64,000 nt of DNA from Caldicellulosiruptor changbaiensis. GTDB lineage: Bacteria; Bacillota; Thermoanaerobacteria; Caldicellulosiruptorales; Caldicellulosiruptoraceae. Under the pieces are notes generated by a model, which made no database searches, was not told where the DNA came from, and saw only the letters and a program-made list of their open reading frames with translations. The DNA is taken from contig NZ_CP034791.1 of the NCBI RefSeq assembly GCF_003999255.1, forward strand, positions 1,404,501 through 1,468,500, read 5' to 3'. Positions 26,174-38,476 of this stretch are shown here, one piece after another. Each line of letters starts with the position of its first letter. Position 1 is the first letter of the stretch. Position numbers and translations under genes: made by a program.

Positions 26174-27913
26174 TTAATACAATGGTCTCCTCTTATAATG
26201 TGTATGAAGTATATGATGCGCCTTTTCACTATTTGGATGTCCTAAGAATTCTTCATATAGCTTTTTGATTGTTGGATTTTCATGAGACTTTCTTATTGGC
26301 AGTGACCTATCCTCGTCATATATAGCACTTGCTCTGAGCTTTGCAACATCTACTTTTTCTCTTACCTTTGCTGGGACAATTGGCTGGCCACCGCCCATTA
26401 TACAACCACCAGGACATGCCATGATTTCAATAAAGTGATATTCCTTTTCACCATTCTTAACCATCTCAAGCAGTTTCTTTGCATTAGCAAGCCCATGTGC
26501 AACTGCAGCCTTTATCTTCATTGTACCAACATCAATTTCTGCCTCTCTTATTCCTTCTAAACCACGAACCTGTGTAATTTCTACATTTTCAAGTGGCTTC
26601 CCTGTCAAAATCTCGTATACTGTTCTAAGTGCTGCTTCCATTACACCACCTGTTGTGCCAAAAATGACACCTGCACCTGTTGCATCACCCATTGGGTCGT
26701 CAAAATGATTGTCTGGCAGGTTAACAAAATCTATTCCTGCTTCCTTTATCATCCGGGCAAGTTCTCTTGTTGTCAGCACAGCATCTACATCAGGATATCC
26801 ACTTGCTGCAAGCTCTTCTCTTTGCGCTTCAAACTTTTTGGCTGTGCATGGCATTATGGAGACTACAAACATGTTAGCAGGATCAATTCCCATCTTCTGC
26901 GCATAGTATGTCTTCAAAATTGCTCCAAACATCTCATGTGGAGATTTGCAAGTTGATAAATTGTCTAAGAATTCTGGGAAGTAGTGTTCACAGAATTTTA
27001 TCCATCCGGGTGAGCATGAAGTAATAAGCGGAAGCTTCCCACCATTTTTGATTCTATTTATAAGCTCTGAGCCTTCTTCCATGATTGTAAGGTCTGCACC
27101 TGTGTCTGTGTCAAATACCTTGTCAAATCCAAGCATCTTAAGAGCTGTTACCATCTTACCTGTCACACGGGTCCCAATCGGAAGACCAAATTCCTCACCA
27201 AGCGCAACTCTTACAGCTGGTGCTGTTTGAACAACAACATATTTGTTCTTATCAGCCAAAGCCTTCCATACAATATCAGTAGAATCCTTTTCACGAAGTG
27301 CCCCGACAGGGCATGCTTGAATACACTGACCACACATTGTACATGCAACATCATTCAAACTTCTATCAAATGCTGTTGAGACAACTGTTCTAAAACCTCT
27401 ATAGTTTGCATTTATAACACCAACTTCTTGGACATTTCTACATACATTAATACATCTTTTGCAAAGTACACACTTGTTCGGGTCTCTAACAATTGAAGGA
27501 GAAAAGTCATCAAGAGGCCGTCTTATATTTTCACCTTCATATCTTATCTGCTTGACATTCAAATCTTCAGCAAGTTTTTGAAGTTCACAATTACCACTTC
27601 TGACGCATGTTAAGCAGTTTCTGTCGTGGTTGGACAAAATCAGCTCAAGGTTAACCTTTCTTGCTCTTCTTACTCTTTCACTGTTTGTGATAACTTCCAT
27701 ACCTTCTGACACAGGATAAACACAAGCTGCTTGCAAGCTCCTTGCACCTTTTACTTCAACAACACACATCCTACAAGCGCCAATCTCATTTATACCTTTT
27801 AAGTAACAAAGGGTTGGAATTTCAACTCCTGCTTCACGTGCTGCCTGCAGAACAGTGTAGTCCTTTGGTACCTGAAGTTTCTTGCCATCTATTGTTATAT
27901 TCACCATCTCCAT
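26174..27913 (-). CDS. hydA: NAD-linked [FeFe] hydrogenase, catalytic subunit (HydA/HndD type)
   Basis: A 579-residue cytoplasmic hydrogenase subunit. In order it has a [2Fe-2S] domain (CYLKGINEIGACRMCVVEV), a His-ligated cluster region (HDRNCLTCVRSGNCELQ), two [4Fe-4S] motifs (CVLCKRCINVCR, CTMCGQCIQACP), then the H-cluster domain. The three H-cluster signatures read TSCSPGW, MPCTAKK and MACPGGCIMGGG. A short C-terminal small-subunit segment ends the chain. With nuoF and nuoE products it forms a bifurcating or NAD(P)H-dependent trimeric hydrogenase. The ATG at 27913 has AAGGAGGG eight bases upstream. Confidence 0.95.
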   Translation of the reverse strand: MEMVNITIDGKKLQVPKDYTVLQAAREAGVEIPTLCYLKGINEIGACRMCVVEVKGARSLQAACVYPVSEGMEVITNSERVRRARKVNLELILSNHDRNCLTCVRSGNCELQKLAEDLNVKQIRYEGENIRRPLDDFSPSIVRDPNKCVLCKRCINVCRNVQEVGVINANYRGFRTVVSTAFDRSLNDVACTMCGQCIQACPVGALREKDSTDIVWKALADKNKYVVVQTAPAVRVALGEEFGLPIGTRVTGKMVTALKMLGFDKVFDTDTGADLTIMEEGSELINRIKNGGKLPLITSCSPGWIKFCEHYFPEFLDNLSTCKSPHEMFGAILKTYYAQKMGIDPANMFVVSIMPCTAKKFEAQREELAASGYPDVDAVLTTRELARMIKEAGIDFVNLPDNHFDDPMGDATGAGVIFGTTGGVMEAALRTVYEILTGKPLENVEITQVRGLEGIREAEIDVGTMKIKAAVAHGLANAKKLLEMVKNGEKEYHFIEIMACPGGCIMGGGQPIVPAKVREKVDVAKLRASAIYDEDRSLPIRKSHENPTIKKLYEEFLGHPNSEKAHHILHTHYKRRPLY

Positions 27914-27930: not shown

Positions 27931-29727
27931 TTAAGCCTTCTTAGAGATTGCTTTGAATGGACATTTTTCTATACATACTCCACACTTAATACATTTTGTC
28001 TGGTCAATCTCAAACGGCTTCTTAATTTGACCAGTTATAGCATTTGCAGGACAGTTCTTAGCACAGATACCACAGCCTTTGCAAAGATCTTTGTCAATTA
28101 CAATTCTCAAAAGTGCCTTACATGCCCCTGCCGGACATCTCTTTTCTTTGACATGTGCTTCATATTCATCTCTGAAGTATCTTAGTGTACTCAAAACTGG
28201 GTTTGGCGCTGTCTGACCAAGTCCACAAAGAGCGCTGTCCTTAATTGAATATGCAAGCTCTTCTAACTTCTCTAAATCCTCTTCTGTCCCGTTTCCACTT
28301 GTAATCTTTTGCAGTATCTCAAGCATTCTTCTTGTTCCTATTCTACATGGCGGACACTTTCCACATGACTCATCAACTGTGAACTCTAAGAAGAACTTTG
28401 CTATATCAACCATACATGTATCTTCATCCATTACAATCATGCCACCAGAACCCATCATTGTCCCAAGCGCTGTGAGTGAGTCAAAGTCAATAGGCGTGTC
28501 CATTAAAGATGCAGGAATACATCCACCAGATGGTCCACCTGTCTGAACAGCTTTGAACTTCTTACCACCTGGTATTCCACCGCCAATGTCTTCGACTATC
28601 TCTCTTACAGTTGTCCCCATTGGAACTTCAATAAGCCCTGTGTTGTTAACCTTTCCAACAAGTGCAAATACTTTGGTACCCTTGCTCTTTTCTGTTCCGA
28701 TTGATGCAAACCACTCTGGTCCTTTGAGGATTATAACAGGAATATTTGCATACGTCTCAACATTGTTCAAAAGTGTTGGTTTGCTCCAAAGTCCCTTTAC
28801 TGCTGGGAATGGTGGTCTTGGTCTTGGCTCTCCACGATGACCTTCAATTGATGTCATTAAAGCTGTCTCCTCACCGCAAACAAATGCACCAGCACCAAGT
28901 CTTATCTCTATATCAAATTCAAAGTCTGTTCCCAAAATATTCTTGCCCAGAAGCCCATACTCTCTTGCCTGGTTTATCGCAATCTCAAGTCTCTTGACAG
29001 CCAGCGGATACTCAGCCCTGACGTAAACATAGCCTTGTTTTGAGCCAATTGCATAACCAGCAATTGCCATAGCCTCAATAACAGAATGTGGGTCACCCTC
29101 TAAGATGCTTCTATCCATGTACGCACCAGGGTCACCTTCGTCAGCATTGCAGACAACATACTTGACATCACCTGGTGCTTTTGCTGCAAATTCCCATTTC
29201 AAACCTGTTGGGAATCCACCGCCACCTCTTCCTCTCAAGCCCGACCTTTTTACCCAGTCAATTACCTGCTCTGGAGTCATCTCTGTCAAGACCTTTGCTA
29301 AAGCTTTGTATCCGTCGTATGCTATATACTCTTCAATGTTTTCTGGATTTATAACACCGCAGTTTCTAAGAGCAATTCGCATCTGTTTTTTGTAGAACTT
29401 GACTTCATTTAAGGACTTTATCTGGCCTTCTTCAAGTGACTCTTTATACAAAAGCCTTTTTACTATTCTTCCTTTTAAAAGATGTTCTTCCACAATCTCT
29501 TTTACATCAGAGTCTGCAACCTTACTATAGAATGCACCTTCGGGATAGACAATGACAATCGGACCTTCTGCACAAAGTCCAAAACATCCTGTACGAATTA
29601 CTTGAACCTCGTCTTTTAAATTGAAGTTTTCTATCTCTTTCAAAAAAGCGTCATATATCTTGTCTGACCCGCCTGATGTACAACCTGTCCCACCACATAC
29701 AAGAACATGTGCTCTATATAATGGCAT
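27931..29727 (-). CDS. NADH-binding hydrogenase subunit (HydB/HndC, NuoF-like)
   Basis: A 598-residue protein in four parts. An N-terminal thioredoxin-like [2Fe-2S] domain (about 1-90; GGTGCTSGG, TGCFGLCAEGP) is followed by the NuoF flavin and NADH domain (RGRGGGGFPTGLKWEF, CNADEGDPGAYMDR, GAGAYVCGEE-like GAGAFVCGEETAL). A [4Fe-4S] domain (CGKCPPCRIGTRRM) and two C-terminal ferredoxin-type clusters (CKGCGICAKNCP, CIKCGVCIEKCP) complete it. It transfers electrons between NADH, flavin and the hydrogenase. It ends 18 bases before hydA. Confidence 0.95.
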   Translation of the reverse strand: MPLYRAHVLVCGGTGCTSGGSDKIYDAFLKEIENFNLKDEVQVIRTGCFGLCAEGPIVIVYPEGAFYSKVADSDVKEIVEEHLLKGRIVKRLLYKESLEEGQIKSLNEVKFYKKQMRIALRNCGVINPENIEEYIAYDGYKALAKVLTEMTPEQVIDWVKRSGLRGRGGGGFPTGLKWEFAAKAPGDVKYVVCNADEGDPGAYMDRSILEGDPHSVIEAMAIAGYAIGSKQGYVYVRAEYPLAVKRLEIAINQAREYGLLGKNILGTDFEFDIEIRLGAGAFVCGEETALMTSIEGHRGEPRPRPPFPAVKGLWSKPTLLNNVETYANIPVIILKGPEWFASIGTEKSKGTKVFALVGKVNNTGLIEVPMGTTVREIVEDIGGGIPGGKKFKAVQTGGPSGGCIPASLMDTPIDFDSLTALGTMMGSGGMIVMDEDTCMVDIAKFFLEFTVDESCGKCPPCRIGTRRMLEILQKITSGNGTEEDLEKLEELAYSIKDSALCGLGQTAPNPVLSTLRYFRDEYEAHVKEKRCPAGACKALLRIVIDKDLCKGCGICAKNCPANAITGQIKKPFEIDQTKCIKCGVCIEKCPFKAISKKA

Positions 29728-29744: not shown

Positions 29745-30134
29745 TTATTTGTTTGCTTCTTTATTTTCTTCATAGCCAATTGTGTATTCATATACTGGCT
29801 TTCCATTCACAATATGCTCAGCAACAACTTTTGAAACTTTTTCAGGTGTCATTTTTACATATGTTACCTTCTCTTTGTTTGGCTCATATACTTCTACAAT
29901 TGGCTCATATTTGCAAAGACCTATACAGCCCGTCTGAACAACTGTTACATTCTTAAGATTTCTTTTTTGAATCTCCTCAACAAACTTTAGCATAACAGGT
30001 CTTGCACCTGCTGCTATCCCACATGTTGCCATACCAACTACTATTCTGATTCCCTCTCCTTGCTGTTTTCTAAATTCGAGCTCTTCCAATGCCTTTTTTC
30101 TTATCTCTTCAAGCTCCTGAATAGACTTAATCAT
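29745..30134 (-). CDS. HndB-like thioredoxin-fold iron-sulfur protein
   Basis: A 129-residue protein beginning MIKSIQELEEIRKKALEEL. A thioredoxin-like [2Fe-2S] ferredoxin fold follows, with VVGMATCGIAAGARPV and TGCIGLCKYEPIVEV. Only three cysteines are visible (C38, C70, C74). A fourth ligand expected for a NuoE-type cluster is a glycine or alanine here. The ATG at 30134 has GGAGGTG upstream and overlaps the preceding gene by eight bases; the longer reading frame back to 30239 is an artefact of overlap. Desulfovibrio-type HndB proteins sit in the same operon position. Confidence 0.88.
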   Translation of the reverse strand: MIKSIQELEEIRKKALEELEFRKQQGEGIRIVVGMATCGIAAGARPVMLKFVEEIQKRNLKNVTVVQTGCIGLCKYEPIVEVYEPNKEKVTYVKMTPEKVSKVVAEHIVNGKPVYEYTIGYEENKEANK

Positions 30135-30687
30135 TGAAATTCGCACCTCCAAATAAATTTGATAACCCTCTTGAAAGCTCTTCCTTAATAAACTCTTGTA
30201 CACTTGGCAAATTGAGAGGTACACCTTCCCCAAGAGCACTTTTTAGCTTATTTGTATCAAAAACAAACTCTTTTTTGTCGATTCTGTGCACATAAACAAA
30301 ATCCACATCCGGTGTACCACATACTAAAAGGAGTAGTGTATCAACAATATTCCCAATCGGTGGCCTGTCAATATGCGAATGCTGCAGCTTAATTTTTACC
30401 TTTGTGCCATTTTCAGATGAGTCAATAATAAGCTTTCCATTACAGTCTTTTGCAAGCTGTGAGGCAAGTGCCAAACCAAGTCCTACCTTTCTTGTTTTCC
30501 TTGTAGTATAAAAAGGATTTGTCACCTCATTTATTAACTCTTTTGGTATACCTCTCCCATTGTCCTCAATTGAGATTAAAAATATGTCATTTTCTAAATC
30601 TTCAACAATCTCAATCTTGACAAACGTTGCCCCAGCCTCAATTGAATTTTGCACAAGGTCAAGGATATAAAGTGAAAGTTCGTTCAA
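30127..30687 (-). CDS. GHKL-type ATP-binding protein (histidine-kinase-like ATPase domain)
   Basis: A 186-residue protein with a GHKL ATPase domain and no histidine-phosphotransfer helix or sensor. The N box is LVQNSIEAGA, the G1 box DNGRGIP, and the F/G2 region is NPFYTTRKTRKVGLGLALA. A C-terminal extension of about 80 residues, with VDTLLLLVCGTPDVDFVYVH, follows. The TTG at 30687 gives the family-typical MNELSLYILDLVQNS start, with AGGGTGA just upstream; a GTG three codons earlier is an alternative. It is an unexplained but recurring part of hydrogenase operons. Confidence 0.87.
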   Translation of the reverse strand: MNELSLYILDLVQNSIEAGATFVKIEIVEDLENDIFLISIEDNGRGIPKELINEVTNPFYTTRKTRKVGLGLALASQLAKDCNGKLIIDSSENGTKVKIKLQHSHIDRPPIGNIVDTLLLLVCGTPDVDFVYVHRIDKKEFVFDTNKLKSALGEGVPLNLPSVQEFIKEELSRGLSNLFGGANFND

Positions 30688-30732
30688 CCAAATCACCCTA
30701 TTTTATTCTTATCACACAGACAGTTTGTTAAG

Positions 30733-31215
30733 TTAATATCTTGACAAGATATTTTCAATATCTTCAGGTGCTAATTTTCCATAGACAGTGTTATCAATTA
30801 CAACAACAGGTGCAAGTCCACAAGCTCCTAAGCATCTTGTTGCTTCAATAGAGAATTTCCCATCTTCAGTTGTGCCACCAACGTCAATCTTTAAAAGCTC
30901 TTTTAATTTATCCAAAATTTTATCTGCACCTTTTACATAGCAAGCAGTTCCCATGCACACACTAATCTTGTGGTCACCTGTTGGTTTTAATGTAAACCTG
31001 GTATAAAATGTTGCAACCCCATAAACCTCTGCCATTGGAATGTTCAGACCCTCTGCAATTCTCTTTTGTACCTCGTATGGCAAGTATCCAAATAGTTCTT
31101 GTGCCTCATGCAAAACAGGAATTAGAGCACCTCTTCTTGATTTGTTTTTTTCAATAATCTCATCAAGTTTTTTGAAGTTTTCCTCGGTCAGATTTTTGCC
31201 TTGGCAACAAGACAT
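30733..31215 (-). CDS. NuoE-like hydrogenase subunit (HydC/HndA type)
   Basis: A 160-residue [2Fe-2S] protein of the 24-kDa NADH dehydrogenase type. The helical N-terminus reads RGALIPVLHEAQELFGYLP, with VYGVATFYTRF in the middle. Cluster cysteines are in SVCMGTACYVKGA and ATRCLGACGLAPV. It is the first gene of the catalytic operon, behind a leader with a Rex-type palindrome. It works with the NuoF-like and HydA subunits in reversible H2 production from NADH and ferredoxin. Confidence 0.94.
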   Translation of the reverse strand: MSCCQGKNLTEENFKKLDEIIEKNKSRRGALIPVLHEAQELFGYLPYEVQKRIAEGLNIPMAEVYGVATFYTRFTLKPTGDHKISVCMGTACYVKGADKILDKLKELLKIDVGGTTEDGKFSIEATRCLGACGLAPVVVIDNTVYGKLAPEDIENILSRY

Positions 31216-31235: not shown

Positions 31236-31253
31236 TTGTTAGAAATTTAACAT
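31236..31253. promoter_or_regulatory. Rex-type operator upstream of the hydrogenase operon
   Basis: The 18-base sequence TTGTTAGAAATTTAACAT has half-sites TTGTTA and TAACAT with a six-base spacer. It differs at one position from the Rex redox-sensor consensus TTGTTA-N6-TAACAA. It lies 21 bases upstream of the nuoE start codon and downstream of a likely promoter. Rex releases DNA when the NADH/NAD ratio rises, so this fits control of an NADH-oxidising hydrogenase. Assignment is by motif only; the rex gene is not in the window. Confidence 0.7.
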
Positions 31254-31323: not shown

Positions 31324-32019
31324 TTACTTGAAAAATATTGTATACAGTATATCACTTTCAATAAAAAACTCCTTTTCGTTAATATCCCATAGATGATGTG
31401 CATCAGAAGAGTGTAAAAAAATGTACCTGCTATCTTTGGGCAAAAGATTTGTAAATTCAAATTCATTGACTTTTGAAACTTCTAAAAGAGAAACATCTTT
31501 TAGTTCATCTGGTAATGTTCCCAGCCTTCCAATTATTCCATAGGATTGTCTATTGATATGAGCTGGAACAAAAATCATATTGTAAAACTTTGAAATTTCA
31601 TAAACTTGAAATATACTTAAATTCAGTGGTTGGAGCAGAAGTTTTTTATAGCTTCCGACAATATTGTCTTCCTTGTCCACTAAGAACTGATTTCCATATA
31701 TATCCTCTCTCAAGGCTATGTTTGGAAGGTTTTCTTCAATAATCTCTTGAAACTCTTCCACTACAGAGAAATCTTTGAAATATAAAAGAACATGGACTTC
31801 TTCACAAGTTTCTATCTCAACACCTGGGATAAATAAAATCCCAAGATGTTTTGCAACCTCTAAGAACTCTTTCAAATTCAATGTAGAATTATGGTCTGTT
31901 ATGGAAATTACATTTAGTCCCTTTATCTTTGCCATGTTTATTATATTATTTGGGGTCATGTCATTGTCAGCACAAGGTGAGAGCGCAGAGTGAATGTGCA
32001 GGTCATAATAGAGTTTCAT
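31324..32019 (-). CDS. PHP-domain metal-dependent hydrolase-like protein
   Basis: A 231-residue PHP (polymerase and histidinol phosphatase) family protein. The metal-site motifs are visible: YYDLHIHSALSPCADND, SITDHNSTLN, FIPGVEIETCEEVHVLLYF, and near the end FLHSSDAHHLWDI. Related proteins include phosphatases and phosphodiesterases. Its 5' end overlaps the DRTGG gene by 17 bases. It lies just upstream of the catalytic hydrogenase operon, so a role in that system is suggested but not shown. Confidence 0.87.
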   Translation of the reverse strand: MKLYYDLHIHSALSPCADNDMTPNNIINMAKIKGLNVISITDHNSTLNLKEFLEVAKHLGILFIPGVEIETCEEVHVLLYFKDFSVVEEFQEIIEENLPNIALREDIYGNQFLVDKEDNIVGSYKKLLLQPLNLSIFQVYEISKFYNMIFVPAHINRQSYGIIGRLGTLPDELKDVSLLEVSKVNEFEFTNLLPKDSRYIFLHSSDAHHLWDINEKEFFIESDILYTIFFK

Positions 32020-32356
32020 TTTGACCTTCCTTCTCTTGAAGAATCAGTAATTTTGCGGTCTCAAAATGAGAAAGCTCGGTTGTGAAAATAGGAATATTTT
32101 CCTGTTTAGATTTTTGAAGCATATTGGCATCTGGCTTTACACCTTCTGTTAATATGATAGCCTTCACATCTCTCAAAGTTGCCACTGCAATGACATTTAT
32201 GTTGTTCTGAATTGTTATCCAGATACTGCGATCTTTGATATGTGAAATTGCAAAGCTCAAAACATCTCCAATATACACATTTTCGTACACATCATCATCT
32301 CTAATAACATCATTCACAAGGTTAAAATATTTTCTTAGGTGCGCAACTCTTGGCAT
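32003..32356 (-). CDS. DRTGG-domain protein (second copy)
   Basis: A 117-residue protein consistent with a stand-alone DRTGG domain: VYIGDVLSFAISHIKDRSIWITIQ, AVATLRDVKAIILTEGVKPDANMLQKS and IPIFTTELSHFETAKLL. DRTGG domains are found as regulatory modules in phosphotransacetylases and CBS proteins. The ATG follows the stop codon of the H-cluster gene directly (TAAATG), which implies coupled translation, and its 3' end overlaps the PHP gene. Confidence 0.82.
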   Translation of the reverse strand: MPRVAHLRKYFNLVNDVIRDDDVYENVYIGDVLSFAISHIKDRSIWITIQNNINVIAVATLRDVKAIILTEGVKPDANMLQKSKQENIPIFTTELSHFETAKLLILQEKEGQNETLL

Positions 32357-33691
32357 TTATTCTTCATCCCTTTCAAGTGATGGTGGTAGTTTATTTGAAA
32401 GCTCAACCATTTTATTTGCAAGCTCTTTAATATTTTCACGAAGGATAAAGATACAATCTGTATCGTTTGCCAAACCTCTGACTATGTCCTCTGCGAGGGT
32501 TTTGCATGTTGGAGAACCACAGGCACCACAATCCAAACCAGGCAAAATCTTTAATATCTCATTTACCCTCTCATACTTTTTCATAGCCTCTTCTATATCA
32601 GAATCAAGCTCTAATACAGGGTTTGCCTCCAATTCTTTTCTAAACAAAAGGTCTTCCATCTTTATTCCAAGGTCATTGACAATTTTTCGAGTATTTTCTT
32701 CTAATATTTGGGCTTTGTCTGCAAGTTTAGAAGACCACTTTTTGATTCTATTCTTAGCAACATACGGATTTTCTACCGTCAACGGTCCACCCACACAACC
32801 CCCACTGCATGCAAGTCCTTCAAAGTAAACAATATTATTCAGCCTTCCATTCTCAATCTCTTCCAAAACCTTTATAACATTATGAATCCCATCCACATTT
32901 ACATACTCATCAATTCCCAAGGCTAAACTCTCTCCACCAGATGCTGCCCATCCAATCCCTTTGCCGGATGAAATAGAAATAGGTTCTACATCATTCATAC
33001 TTTTCAACTTACTTCTAACAAGCCCATAAATATCCTTGATAGCAATTACTCCATCTACATATGACCTTTCAAACCCAAGTGGCAAGTTTACGTAAGTCAT
33101 CTTTGCTGCACAAGGTGAGATGAAAAAAGCACCTATTCTGTCTATCTCAATGCCTTTTTGCCTGTTTATTCTCTTTTTTGCGAGGTGGGCAGCAACCTCC
33201 ATTGGAGAAGCAAGTGGGAGGATATTATCAATCAAATCTGGGAATTTTGTCTGGATAAGCCTTACCACTGCTGGGCAGGCAGAAGAAATTATGGGTCTTT
33301 TATCTCTCTTTTTTGAAATAAACTCCTTTGTGAACTCTGTCACAATCTCTGCTGCTTTTGCCACTTCAAATATGTCGTCAAATCCTATTTCTAACAATGC
33401 ATGTAATAGTTTATTGATATCATCTGTTTCAAATTGAGCATAAAATGAGGGTGCTGGTAGAGCAACTTTATATTCGTATTTTTTTATATCATCTAAACTA
33501 TTTGTTACAGCATATTTTGCGTGATACGGGCATGTTCGTATACACTCACCACAGTCTATACATCTTTGATCGATAATTCTGGCTTTTGAACTTCTCACTC
33601 TTATTGCTTCTGTTGGACACTTTTTAATACAATTTGTACACCCTCTGCACTTCTCTCTGTCAAGCATTATCGAATGCAGATTAAAAGGCAT
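32357..33691 (-). CDS. H-cluster iron-sulfur protein, putative sensory [FeFe] hydrogenase
   Basis: A 444-residue protein. It begins with two [4Fe-4S] ferredoxin motifs (CRGCTNCIKKCP, CIDCGECIRTCP). A hydrogenase large-domain region with degenerate H-cluster signatures follows (SSACPAVVRL, SPCAAKM, LACSGGCVGGP), then a C-terminal four-cysteine domain (DCGACGSPTC and a later C). The proton-relay position of the first motif is alanine, as reported for the putative sensory hydrogenase HydS of Thermotoga. The ATG at 33691 with AGGAAG upstream is preferred over a GTG four codons earlier. It sits between an anti-sigma-type ATPase and a DRTGG gene. Confidence 0.87.
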   Translation of the reverse strand: MPFNLHSIMLDREKCRGCTNCIKKCPTEAIRVRSSKARIIDQRCIDCGECIRTCPYHAKYAVTNSLDDIKKYEYKVALPAPSFYAQFETDDINKLLHALLEIGFDDIFEVAKAAEIVTEFTKEFISKKRDKRPIISSACPAVVRLIQTKFPDLIDNILPLASPMEVAAHLAKKRINRQKGIEIDRIGAFFISPCAAKMTYVNLPLGFERSYVDGVIAIKDIYGLVRSKLKSMNDVEPISISSGKGIGWAASGGESLALGIDEYVNVDGIHNVIKVLEEIENGRLNNIVYFEGLACSGGCVGGPLTVENPYVAKNRIKKWSSKLADKAQILEENTRKIVNDLGIKMEDLLFRKELEANPVLELDSDIEEAMKKYERVNEILKILPGLDCGACGSPTCKTLAEDIVRGLANDTDCIFILRENIKELANKMVELSNKLPPSLERDEE

Positions 33692-33733
33692 TTTAAAATT
33701 CACTTCCTTAAAAGAATATTAAGATAATTTAAA

Positions 33734-34153
33734 TTATTTGTTGAACACGACCATATACACCCTTGTTCCAGTGCCTTTTTGGGACTCAATCTCAAAATGA
33801 TCAGAATATTTTTTCATATTAGGAAGACCCATACCCGCGCCAAATCCTAAGTTTCTTATTTCTTCAGGAGCTGTCGAGTACCCTTCCATCATTGCAAGTT
33901 CAATATTCTCTATTCCAGGGCCTCTGTCTTCAGCAATTATTTCAATCTTGTCTTTTGAGATGATGGCTTTCAAAACTCCACCTACAGAATGTATAACAAT
34001 ATTCATCTCTGCTTCGTATGAAATAATGGCAACCTTTTTCAAAATTTCAGGCTTAACTCCCAACTTTTTTAAAGCATCCTTAATCTTGCTTGAGGCCTCT
34101 CCAGCTAATACAAAATCTCCAGCTTTGATGTCAAATTCCATTGAAAGCAGCAT
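33734..34153 (-). CDS. Anti-sigma-factor-like GHKL ATPase (RsbW/SpoIIAB type)
   Basis: A 139-residue protein with a complete GHKL ATP-binding fold and little else. The N box is SYEAEMNIVIHS, the G1 region AEDRGPGIENIELAMMEGYS and the G2 region GFGAGMGLPNMKKYSD. Such proteins act as serine kinases of anti-anti-sigma factors or as partner switches. The ATG at 34153 follows the DRTGG stop codon by four bases and has AAAGGTG upstream; reading frames further upstream overlap the DRTGG gene. No sigma factor or STAS partner is encoded in the window. Confidence 0.87.
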   Translation of the reverse strand: MLLSMEFDIKAGDFVLAGEASSKIKDALKKLGVKPEILKKVAIISYEAEMNIVIHSVGGVLKAIISKDKIEIIAEDRGPGIENIELAMMEGYSTAPEEIRNLGFGAGMGLPNMKKYSDHFEIESQKGTGTRVYMVVFNK

Positions 34154-34157
34154 CTTT

Positions 34158-34508
34158 TCAGCACCTTTCTTTTCCCAACCCATTTTCATAGAGTATTCCA
34201 CATGCCTGAAACATTGGAAAGTCTGTAGAGTAAAGAGCTATGCATTTCTCTTTTGCCAACTTCAACATCTCTTCTGAGGGTTGCTTTCCACGAACAATTA
34301 TAACAGCCTTTATATCCATCATTTCAGCTGTACGAATAACCTGAGGATTGACAAGACCCGTAAGGAGAATTACCTTTTCCTTTACAAAGGCTAAAACATC
34401 ACTCATCAAATCAGAACCACAAGCATTCAAAAATTCTTCTTCAGAAAGCTCTTGAGGCTCAAAAAAAACCTTACATTTCAAGAGATCTTTTATTTTTGAT
34501 AATTTCAT
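34158..34508 (-). CDS. DRTGG-domain protein (first copy)
   Basis: A stand-alone DRTGG domain of 116 residues from the ATG at 34508 (MKLSKIKDLLKCKVFF); an ATG at 34526 would add six residues. Features are CGSDLMSDVLAFVKEKVILLTG, VIRTAEMMDIKAVIIVRGKQP and CIALYSTDFPMFQACGILY. It is the first gene of the accessory set, 24 bases after tlyA, and its end is four bases from the ATPase start. The pair of a DRTGG domain next to a GHKL ATPase is seen twice in spirit along this region. Confidence 0.82.
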   Translation of the reverse strand: MKLSKIKDLLKCKVFFEPQELSEEEFLNACGSDLMSDVLAFVKEKVILLTGLVNPQVIRTAEMMDIKAVIIVRGKQPSEEMLKLAKEKCIALYSTDFPMFQACGILYENGLGKERC

Positions 34509-34532
34509 AACTTTAAAAACCCCCATCCAACT

Positions 34533-37214: not shown

Positions 37215-37763
37215 CTATGTCTTTATAAATATGCTAAGAATTTTTCCACTTATTTTCACTATATCATAACTTTTTTTGATTGCAAAATACTTGCCAATTG
37301 CTTTACCTGAAATTGTAAGAGCAGCAACAGTTGCTGTTAAAATCAGTGAAAGAAACACAATATCAGCGTTACTATTCTTTGAAATGTAGAAAACAATACT
37401 TGCAGAGAGCGAACCGCTCAATATCCCACAGATGTCTCCTATTACATCATTGCAAATTGAAGAAACTTTACTTGCATTTTTAATGAGCCAAATACTGTTT
37501 TTTGCTCCTTTAACTTTTTTTGCAGCCATGGCATGAAAAGGAACTTCATCAGCAGCAGTAGTTGCTATACCTATTATATCAAATAAAATTCCCAAAAGAA
37601 TTATTATAAACAATAGTACAAATGATATAGTAATTGGTAATTTTTCAGACACAATACTCGAGATGTAATTTAGAGAAGCAGACAATAAAAAGGACAATAC
37701 AAATAAAAACACCACCCATTTAAAATACTCTGACTTTTTGGTTTGTGTCTTCTTACTCCCCAT
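37215..37763 (-). CDS. oapA: OapA-like OLE RNA-associated membrane protein
   Basis: A 182-residue membrane protein with about four hydrophobic segments (near 15-37, 45-67, 110-128 and 135-152) and a basic N-terminus. A DxxxD motif lies at D106-VIG-D110 (NDVIGDICG), a feature reported for OapA. The N-terminal half recalls the membrane part of CorB/CorC magnesium transporters. Identification rests mainly on the adjacent OLE RNA, ending 58 bases upstream, and on the downstream dxs gene. OapA is the protein that holds OLE RNA at the membrane. The ATG has GGGGAGG four bases upstream. Confidence 0.85.
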   Translation of the reverse strand: MGSKKTQTKKSEYFKWVVFLFVLSFLLSASLNYISSIVSEKLPITISFVLLFIIILLGILFDIIGIATTAADEVPFHAMAAKKVKGAKNSIWLIKNASKVSSICNDVIGDICGILSGSLSASIVFYISKNSNADIVFLSLILTATVAALTISGKAIGKYFAIKKSYDIVKISGKILSIFIKT

Positions 37764-37821
37764 TTTTCCTCCCCAATATATAAAAAAACTTTTTTATCTT
37801 ACATTGAAAGTATACAAATTT

Positions 37822-38441
37822 ATGGGATAGGGTGATTTTACGAAGGGTAAATTTTGCGGCTTGAGGTCTGGTAGGATTTCCCCCAAACTTACCTCCCGTC
37901 GCCAGGAGGCGGTTTCCCTTTAAAAGTTTGGGTGTGCGGTTGCCCAACACACAACCAGATCGCCACTAAGTCCGCACTTTAATCCCCTTCGTAAAGCCGA
38001 AAATCGGCACAGCCTAGGAGCTTTCCTCGACAGAGGGCATGCTTTCTAGCCTCTTTTGCGAAATAGATTTCAGGCCTCAAGACTCCTCTAAAAACGGGCC
38101 CTATTTTTAGAGGAGCCATAAATTCGGCCATCCGTCTATCTCGCTCAAGGCAGGCTACACTACCCCAAGCACATCTACTTAATTATAGATGCACCTGGCG
38201 GTAGGTTTTACTAACGCACAAAAAGAATTTAACCTTCCTTTTGTGCGTTAGCCTCCACGGGAAAAGGGTTCCATCCTGCATGCCATTGCAGGACTCCCTT
38301 ATCCCTTACTCCCAGCTTCAACCCCTGACTGGGCGTCAGAAGCCAAAACCAGGAACTTCATCGGTGTGCCCTTTGGCGGATTTTTAGGCCCGCCTTCGAA
38401 AGCAGCCACTCTGACTAGGATACTGCATCACCCTATCCCAT
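37822..38441 (-). ncRNA. ole: OLE RNA (ornate large extremophilic RNA)
   Basis: A 620-nt region without a credible protein gene and much richer in G and C than its surroundings. Its two ends, at 37822-37836 and 38427-38441, are perfect 15-base complements and would close the RNA. Internal hairpins include 13 bp at 38211-38223/38239-38251, 12 bp at 38083-38094/38104-38115 and 7 bp at 38274-38280/38287-38293. Length, strong structure, and position directly upstream of oapA and dxs match OLE RNA of anaerobic and extremophilic Firmicutes. OLE forms a membrane RNP linked to Mg2+, alcohol and cold responses. It has its own promoter. Confidence 0.9.
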
Positions 38442-38476
38442 ATTGCAGACATTTCTTATTTAGTTTTCAGAATAAT

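Follow-up and report, generated by a model that had tools for sequence, protein, structure and literature searches.

Five genes that overlap or touch one another are located directly upstream of an operon for a bifurcating-type [FeFe]-hydrogenase in Caldicellulosiruptor changbaiensis, and this arrangement raises the question whether these genes, one of which encodes a second H-cluster protein, form a regulatory system for the hydrogenase. We analyzed the locus in a window of 64,000 nucleotides (contig NZ_CP034791.1, positions 1,404,501 to 1,468,500; all coordinates below are those of the window) and in other Bacillota genomes. The five genes (D1, A1, HydS, D2 and PHP) and an ATPase gene inside the hydrogenase operon (A2) represent six families that form one unit. 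Because these families co-occur, maintain a common gene order and are joined in pairwise fusions, they very probably act together; we give about an even chance to the reading that they represent an H2- or redox-sensing signalling module for the enzymes that balance ferredoxin, NAD(H) and H2.

Gene content of the locus

The five genes form a touching block on the minus strand (31324-34526), and NuoE, the first gene of the hydrogenase operon, follows 108 bp past PHP. The genes, in the order of transcription, are:

34158 to 34526, minus strand: DRTGG1 (D1), small DRTGG-fold protein, likely start 34508
33734 to 34201, minus strand: ATPase1 (A1), RsbT/SpoIIAB-type GHKL kinase-like protein, overlapping DRTGG1
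32357 to 33703, minus strand: HydS, PAS-less group D (M2e) putative sensory [FeFe]-hydrogenase-like protein
32003 to 32356, minus strand: DRTGG2 (D2), with no gap to HydS
31324 to 32019, minus strand: PHP-domain metallo-phosphoesterase, overlapping DRTGG2 by about 17 bp
30733 to 31215, minus strand: NuoE/HydC-like [2Fe-2S] subunit (2Fe-2S_thioredx, 2.8e-54), hydrogenase operon gene 1
30127 to 30696, minus strand: ATPase2 (A2), histidine-kinase-type CA domain (HATPase_c, 1.8e-17) plus a C-terminal domain of about 75 residues
29745 to 30239, minus strand: Fd2, small thioredoxin-like [2Fe-2S]-type protein in a HydD-like position
27931 to 29727, minus strand: NuoF/HydB-like flavin subunit (Complex1_51K, 1.3e-46)
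26177 to 27913, minus strand: HydA, catalytic group A-type [FeFe]-hydrogenase subunit with TSCSPGW and EIMACPGGC motifs

A preliminary description of this DNA had reported five overlapping or nearly touching genes as well as a second GHKL ATPase in the hydrogenase operon, and we found all of them in place. Its start for D1 (34508) is favored over that of the longest open reading frame by the family alignment. For A1, comparison with the family favors a start at a later ATG, near 34153, and the internal ATG of Fd2, which yields a protein of 129 amino acids, is probably the true start (relatives mostly have 118-134 amino acids).

Conservation of the module across genomes

The five families HydS, A1, DRTGG, A2 and PHP were surveyed in one and the same set of 299 Bacillota genomes, among which 119, 127, 131, 125 and 116 genomes, respectively, were positive. 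All five families occurred together in 109 genomes, while 166 genomes had none of them; among the 119 genomes with HydS, A1 and DRTGG were each present in 118. Every pair of families was associated (P < 1e-60, Fisher's test), where the P values describe strength only, as the genomes are related.

Gene order was assessed in 154 non-redundant loci gathered by HydS alone, with the loci that had room to see a given neighbor as denominators. Most loci showed the order D1-A1-HydS-D2-PHP; A1 was located upstream of HydS in 140/144 loci (both D1 and A1 in 127/144), while D2 and PHP were located downstream in 131/143 and 128/143 loci, respectively, frequencies that chance would by no means produce. According to the preliminary description, a lack of co-occurrence with hydrogenase operons in other genomes would speak against a hydrogenase-linked system; NuoE/NuoF genes were, in fact, located within approx. 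8 kb of HydS in 91/112 loci. No relatives of HydS were found among viral contigs.

The halves of the module can separate. In one family (L040, L057, L059, L060 and L209, L212), the module is divided, with A1-HydS near a histidine kinase and a response regulator and D1-D2-PHP-A2 at another site (seen for G156 and G256); a histidine kinase and a response regulator near the cassette were found only in a minority of loci (e.g., L040, L057, L059, L060). The RadC and MreB genes beside the module in L209 were considered and look like ordinary neighbors. One further module (L204:6165-7924) is decaying, with fragments of HydS and PHP, loss of A1 and still open D1 and D2 genes, and adjoins an intact hydrogenase operon with A2. 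In L052, L056 and L066 the hydrogenase operon has the order A2, a gene of 141-179 amino acids, Fd2, NuoE, NuoF and HydA. Genes often located upstream of the module, at about 20-30 loci, are a folC-like gene, a valS-like gene and one that encodes approx. 200 amino acids; this probably reflects old synteny.

Natural fusions and exchange of parts

Five combinations of genes were found fused, i.e., D1-A1 in a single reading frame at 10 loci, PHP-A2 at three (L081, L093, L101), HydS-D2 at two (L046, L049), A1-HydS at one (L104) and A2-Fd2 at one (L042). Pfam confirmed one example each of the first four combinations, and the A2-Fd2 fusion was identified with a purpose-built profile. Contacts between the partners of each of these fusions are probable. 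In the HydS-D2 fusions the DRTGG domain is located after the C-terminal Fe-S domain, where a group C-like protein of L046 carries a PAS domain.

Parts of the module can also be exchanged. At four loci without HydS (L194-L197, where L195 and L196 represent the same genome), A1 carries an N-terminal pair of CBS domains; L194 is near Rnf genes (RnfC), as is L196 (RnfC, RnfD, RnfB), while L197 adjoins hydABC and Rex. That a CBS pair can stand in for HydS, and Rnf for the hydrogenase as a neighbor, suggests that the module is a general controller of redox balance. A kinase-like ATP-binding gene has been reported just upstream of the Rnf genes of C. aceticum (PMC7911925) and may represent another Rnf-linked module. 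Three loci contain only DRTGG2-type proteins, together with A2 (L205-L207, of which L205 and L206 are inside a hydrogenase operon), and the lone DRTGG protein of L200 is a D1 located with A1; as D2 is thus paired with A2 and D1 with A1, these loci suggest that the module has two arms, D1/A1 and D2/A2.

The H-cluster protein HydS

HydS of the window matched the Pfam families Fe_hyd_lg_C (1.3e-37) and FeS (PF04060, 6e-12) and contains two N-terminal [4Fe-4S] motifs and an H-domain with the four H-cluster cysteines. Its motifs SSACP, FISPCAAK and LACSGGC represent the signature reported for group D (PMC8163306). Among matched HydS proteins, the site of the proton-transfer cysteine (C299, CpI numbering) is Ala or Ser in 138/142 and the M353 site (CpI numbering) is Ser or Thr in 122/124; the C-terminal motif Cx2Cx4Cx16C is kept in 154/154 non-redundant cassette HydS, with a median of 34 residues beyond the motif. 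Pfam detected no PAS domain, as characteristic of group C (M2f), in HydS of the window. In a phylogenetic tree, the sampled cassette HydS proteins represented one clade, apart from PAS-bearing sensory proteins and from the catalytic HydA proteins, which formed a distinct clade (support 100/100); rows labelled "other" within the HydS clade are cassette HydS from duplicate loci. By its domains, active-site substitutions, C-terminal motif and absence of PAS, HydS is classified as a group D (M2e) putative sensory [FeFe]-hydrogenase.

Both genomes with a HydS-D2 fusion also encode, a few kb away, a group C-like protein with H-cluster, FeS, PAS, HisKA and HATPase domains (L046:11472-13772 and L049:11646-13979; domains checked for L046), and in the tree such PAS-bearing relatives are placed apart from the HydS clade.

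Group D (M2e) hydrogenases of the TamHydS type are termed "putative sensory"; TamHydS has sensor-like properties and is a functional hydrogenase once matured (PMC8163306). The redox state of its C-terminal cluster does not change with H2 (PMC13104023), a result that speaks for a conformational signal; how group D proteins relay a signal is treated as an open question in the TamHydS papers (PMC8163306, PMC13104023). In Caldicellulosiruptor, Thermoanaerobacter relatives and C. thermocellum, a gene of this type was reported to lie upstream of the genes for the bifurcating hydrogenase, in many cases with a histidine/serine kinase gene in between (PMC3561251). The preliminary description had likened the locus to genes near hydABC in Thermotoga; this likeness did not hold at the level of HydS, as Thermotoga carries a PAS-type group C (M2f) relative and not the group D protein (PMC3561251).

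The ATPases, DRTGG proteins and PHP protein

A1 matched HATPase_c (7e-8) and HATPase_c_2, and its closest solved structure is SpoIIAB (Z 18.6). The N-box (E63/E65/N67) and the G1 (DxGPGI) and G2 (GFGAGMGL) motifs were invariant or nearly so among 126 sequences; by fold and motifs, A1 shows the features of RsbW/RsbT/SpoIIAB-type GHKL Ser/Thr kinases. In A2, the D13/N17, DNGxG and GLG motifs were invariant or nearly so (89 sequences), and the structure model (predicted local distance difference test, pLDDT, 90) resembles histidine-kinase catalytic domains as well as MutL/TopoVI-type ATPases. Pfam detected neither a phosphoacceptor His domain nor a receiver domain, as characteristic of two-component systems, in A1 or A2. 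A role of A1 as a histidine-kinase "sensor" was dropped for lack of a phosphoacceptor domain, as was a role as an "anti-sigma factor", since the cassette has no sigma partner. Structures were modelled for the D1-A1 fusion and A2 only, and MAFFT alignments that mixed fusions with single-domain proteins misplaced domains.

D1 matched the Pfam family DRTGG (PF07085) at 1.4e-4 (22.0 bits, under the cut-off of 25.2), while D2 scored above this cut-off (4.9e-9, 36.4 bits). A D1 orthologue fused to A1 (L043, pLDDT 92) matched the DRTGG structure 2ioj over 112 residues (Z 17.7) and also matched 3l2b (Z 14.1) and 1ko7 (Z 10.7). By profile, D1 and D2 are distinct families (108 vs 48 bits); nevertheless, the residues invariant in D1 (D39, S42, T56, G57; 112 sequences) and D2 (D31, S34, T48, N54; 126 sequences) include a common pattern of an Asp, a Ser at +3 and a Thr at +17 (D39/S42/T56 and D31/S34/T48). 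The PHP protein matched its Pfam family at 6.7e-11, with nucleotide phosphatases among the profile matches, and its metal ligands (H8, H10, D42-H43, E68, H76, H154, D206, H208) were 99-100% conserved in 114 sequences. The PHP family (the window protein at 31324-32019 and 113 relatives) also has an invariant cysteine, C16, in an LSPC motif straight after the metal-binding HxH, which is a possible redox-sensitive site.

Proposed mechanism and alternatives

The fusions, the kept gene order, the co-occurrence and the proximity of NuoE/NuoF all fit an H2/redox-signalling module. Under this proposal, H2 bound at the H-cluster of HydS would represent the input, and a conformational change would be relayed through the C-terminal Fe-S region, i.e., the place of PAS in group C and of D2 in the fusions. 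A1, as a Ser/Thr-kinase-like or ATP-gated switch, would be altered by HydS and act on its fused or neighboring DRTGG partner at an invariant Ser/Thr; the DRTGG proteins would carry the state of the switch and PHP would reverse it by removing the mark. The D2/PHP/A2 arm would set the activity or assembly of the hydrogenase, with A2, which resides in its operon, as the link. At loci without HydS, the CBS pair on A1 would serve as the input, implying adenine nucleotide sensing.

These parts differ in how probable we consider them. That the proteins form a regulatory complex for these enzymes (HydABC here, Rnf elsewhere) appears likely. The specific phospho-switch of kinase, DRTGG and PHP is a tentative proposal. 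The invariant kinase and metallo-enzyme active-site residues, the SpoIIAB-like fold of A1, the DRTGG-like fold of D1 and the sensor-like properties of TamHydS (PMC8163306) speak for the overall reading. We are similarly hesitant to regard as a previously undescribed design the combination of a GHKL kinase with a DRTGG partner that replaces STAS, reversal by PHP, exchangeable inputs and a post-translational output on hydrogenase or Rnf.

Several points weigh against the proposed mechanism. Elsewhere, no DRTGG domain is known to serve as a phospho-acceptor, and the invariant Ser/Thr residues may have a structural role; among PHP proteins, nucleases and small-molecule phosphatases are common. No hydrogenase gene was recognized within 8 kb of some stand-alone modules (e.g., L114, L123, L134). 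Finally, the direction of the signal, phosphorylation, the response to H2, protein contact and the output are all inferred here from sequence. The view of the preliminary description, i.e., an H2 or redox sensor coupled to a GHKL or phosphoryl module and tied to the hydrogenase, thus agrees with the gene order, co-occurrence, fusions and proximity, but the tie is not to the hydrogenase alone, given the Rnf-linked and stand-alone modules and the replacement of HydS by CBS.

The alternative that survives best, although we consider it unlikely, is a nucleotide messenger. Here, the DRTGG and CBS domains would bind an adenine nucleotide, PHP would hydrolyze it or a related metabolite, the ATPases would act as ATP-gated conformational switches instead of protein kinases, and the output would be allosteric control of HydABC or Rnf. 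Such a messenger would be consistent with the fusion of CBS pairs to A1, with the closest solved DRTGG structures, among which is the regulatory CBS-DRTGG region of a pyrophosphatase, and with the nucleotide phosphatases among the matched PHP profiles; however, A1 has kept its SpoIIAB-type kinase motifs, and most modules have no CBS domain.

Slightly less probable still is transcriptional control, in which a partner encoded elsewhere (a STAS protein, a sigma factor or a DNA-binding protein) would be held or phosphorylated by A1, or Rex would be modulated by the module, so that hydABC expression follows H2. One feature of the window bears on this possibility:

31236 to 31253, plus strand: Rex-like operator, located approx. 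20 nt ahead of the NuoE start and deviating from TTGTTAA-N4-TTAACAA at two positions

Taken alone, this match is weak evidence. Across 94 loci, Rex-like sites upstream of NuoE were enriched, with 13 loci at up to two mismatches (0.85 in shuffles) and 34 at three mismatches (5.2 in shuffles), as compared to 1/154 at two mismatches inside HydS. Several loci also have a Rex gene directly upstream of a D1-A1 fusion. Rex thus probably controls the hydrogenase operon in some of these genomes at least, which leaves room for a second, H2-directed layer of control by the cassette. On the other hand, no DNA-binding or receiver gene was a constant member of the cassette across loci, nor was a STAS antagonist, PP2C or sigma factor among its conserved genes (distant partners are possible), so that the classical type of partner switch considered in the preliminary description was not supported. 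In favor of a distant partner, STAS genes are present in the genome of the window. STAS genes were present in 269/299 genomes, which renders their co-occurrence uninformative, while three A1-bearing genomes (G024, G036, G241) had no STAS match, although these are drafts and thus incomplete evidence. That one genome has A2 fused to Fd2, a protein of the hydrogenase operon, also argues against a transcriptional output.

We regard as improbable that the GHKL ATPases, DRTGG proteins and PHP build or repair H-cluster or Fe-S enzymes, a reading in which HydS would be a scaffold for insertion or a decoy. The location of the module with large Fe-S complexes fits such a role, and A. woodii HydE, which has the position of A2, is missing from the enzyme as purified, and a part in assembly or in signalling has been suggested for it (PMC3315566). 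Conversely, 166/299 genomes, counted irrespective of whether they carry HydABC or Rnf, have no module, matured group D HydS has hydrogenase function of its own (PMC8163306), and the replacement of HydS by CBS is better suited to sensing. Mere synteny of co-inherited neighbors without a common function, for which the frequent housekeeping genes upstream (valS- and folC-like) could be cited, has a negligible probability given the five fusion combinations, the co-occurrence of five families and the keeping of the block where hydrogenase genes lie elsewhere.

Other features of the window

An ornate, large, extremophilic (OLE) RNA (RF01071, 552 bits, full length) is located at 37816-38447 on the minus strand, in the direction of the cassette; the gene for an OapA-like membrane protein as well as dxs and tlyA are located downstream of it. 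The RNA is accompanied by a gene (37215-37763) for a membrane protein of 182 amino acids.

Comparison with known systems

If the module acts as proposed, D1, A1, D2, PHP and A2 provide a list of partners for HydS signalling, with the five kinds of fusion hinting at contacts. Of the Bacillota genomes sampled, approx. 36-40% carry a module of this kind; among the carriers are gut anaerobes as well as thermophilic producers of H2 and ethanol, so that the module may widely set H2 output and electron balance.

The preliminary description had put the locus forward as a candidate for an undescribed system, which holds in part. Group D HydS, its place by the bifurcating hydrogenase, the kinase-like neighbor and A. 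woodii HydE are already known (PMC8163306, PMC3561251, PMC3608648, PMC3315566). In the open-access literature searched, we found no description of DRTGG or PHP proteins as partners, of the fusions, of the replacement of HydS by CBS or of the link to Rnf, nor any of DRTGG together with [FeFe]-hydrogenase; a mention in Calusinska et al. 2010, a classification of these enzymes and their clusters, is possible. HydS shares with the TamHydS type the domain layout, active-site substitutions, Cx2Cx4Cx16C motif and absence of PAS, as well as a location upstream of a heterotrimeric bifurcating hydrogenase and adjoining a kinase-like ATPase. The cited parts of the group D papers name as neighbors only the kinase-like gene and, in T. 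mathranii, an AraC gene (PMC8163306, PMC13104023, PMC3561251); DRTGG1/2, PHP, ATPase2, the fusions, the CBS replacement and the Rnf linkage go beyond these. Group C proteins (Thermotoga TM1420-1422, R. albus HydS) also combine an H-cluster with a C-terminal Fe-S domain and a proposed role in H2 sensing, but they carry PAS, and sometimes HisKA/HATPase, on the same chain, whereas the ATPase of the cassette is separate and DRTGG2 is fused at this place in two genomes.

By position and description, A2 resembles A. woodii HydE, a histidine-kinase-type ATPase gene in a hydC-first hydrogenase operon (PMC3315566) like that of NuoE-A2-Fd2-NuoF-HydA. A1 shares its fold and intact kinase motifs with the partner-switch kinases SpoIIAB, RsbW, RsbT and SiaB, but unlike in those systems its fused partner is a DRTGG domain, and STAS, PP2C and sigma genes are absent from the cassette. 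The DRTGG fold of D1 is shared with the CBS-DRTGG region of family II pyrophosphatase and the N-domain of HprK, and CBS pairs join the module in some genomes; while in the pyrophosphatase and HprK these domains are part of one enzyme chain, the DRTGG proteins of the module stand alone or are fused to a GHKL ATPase.

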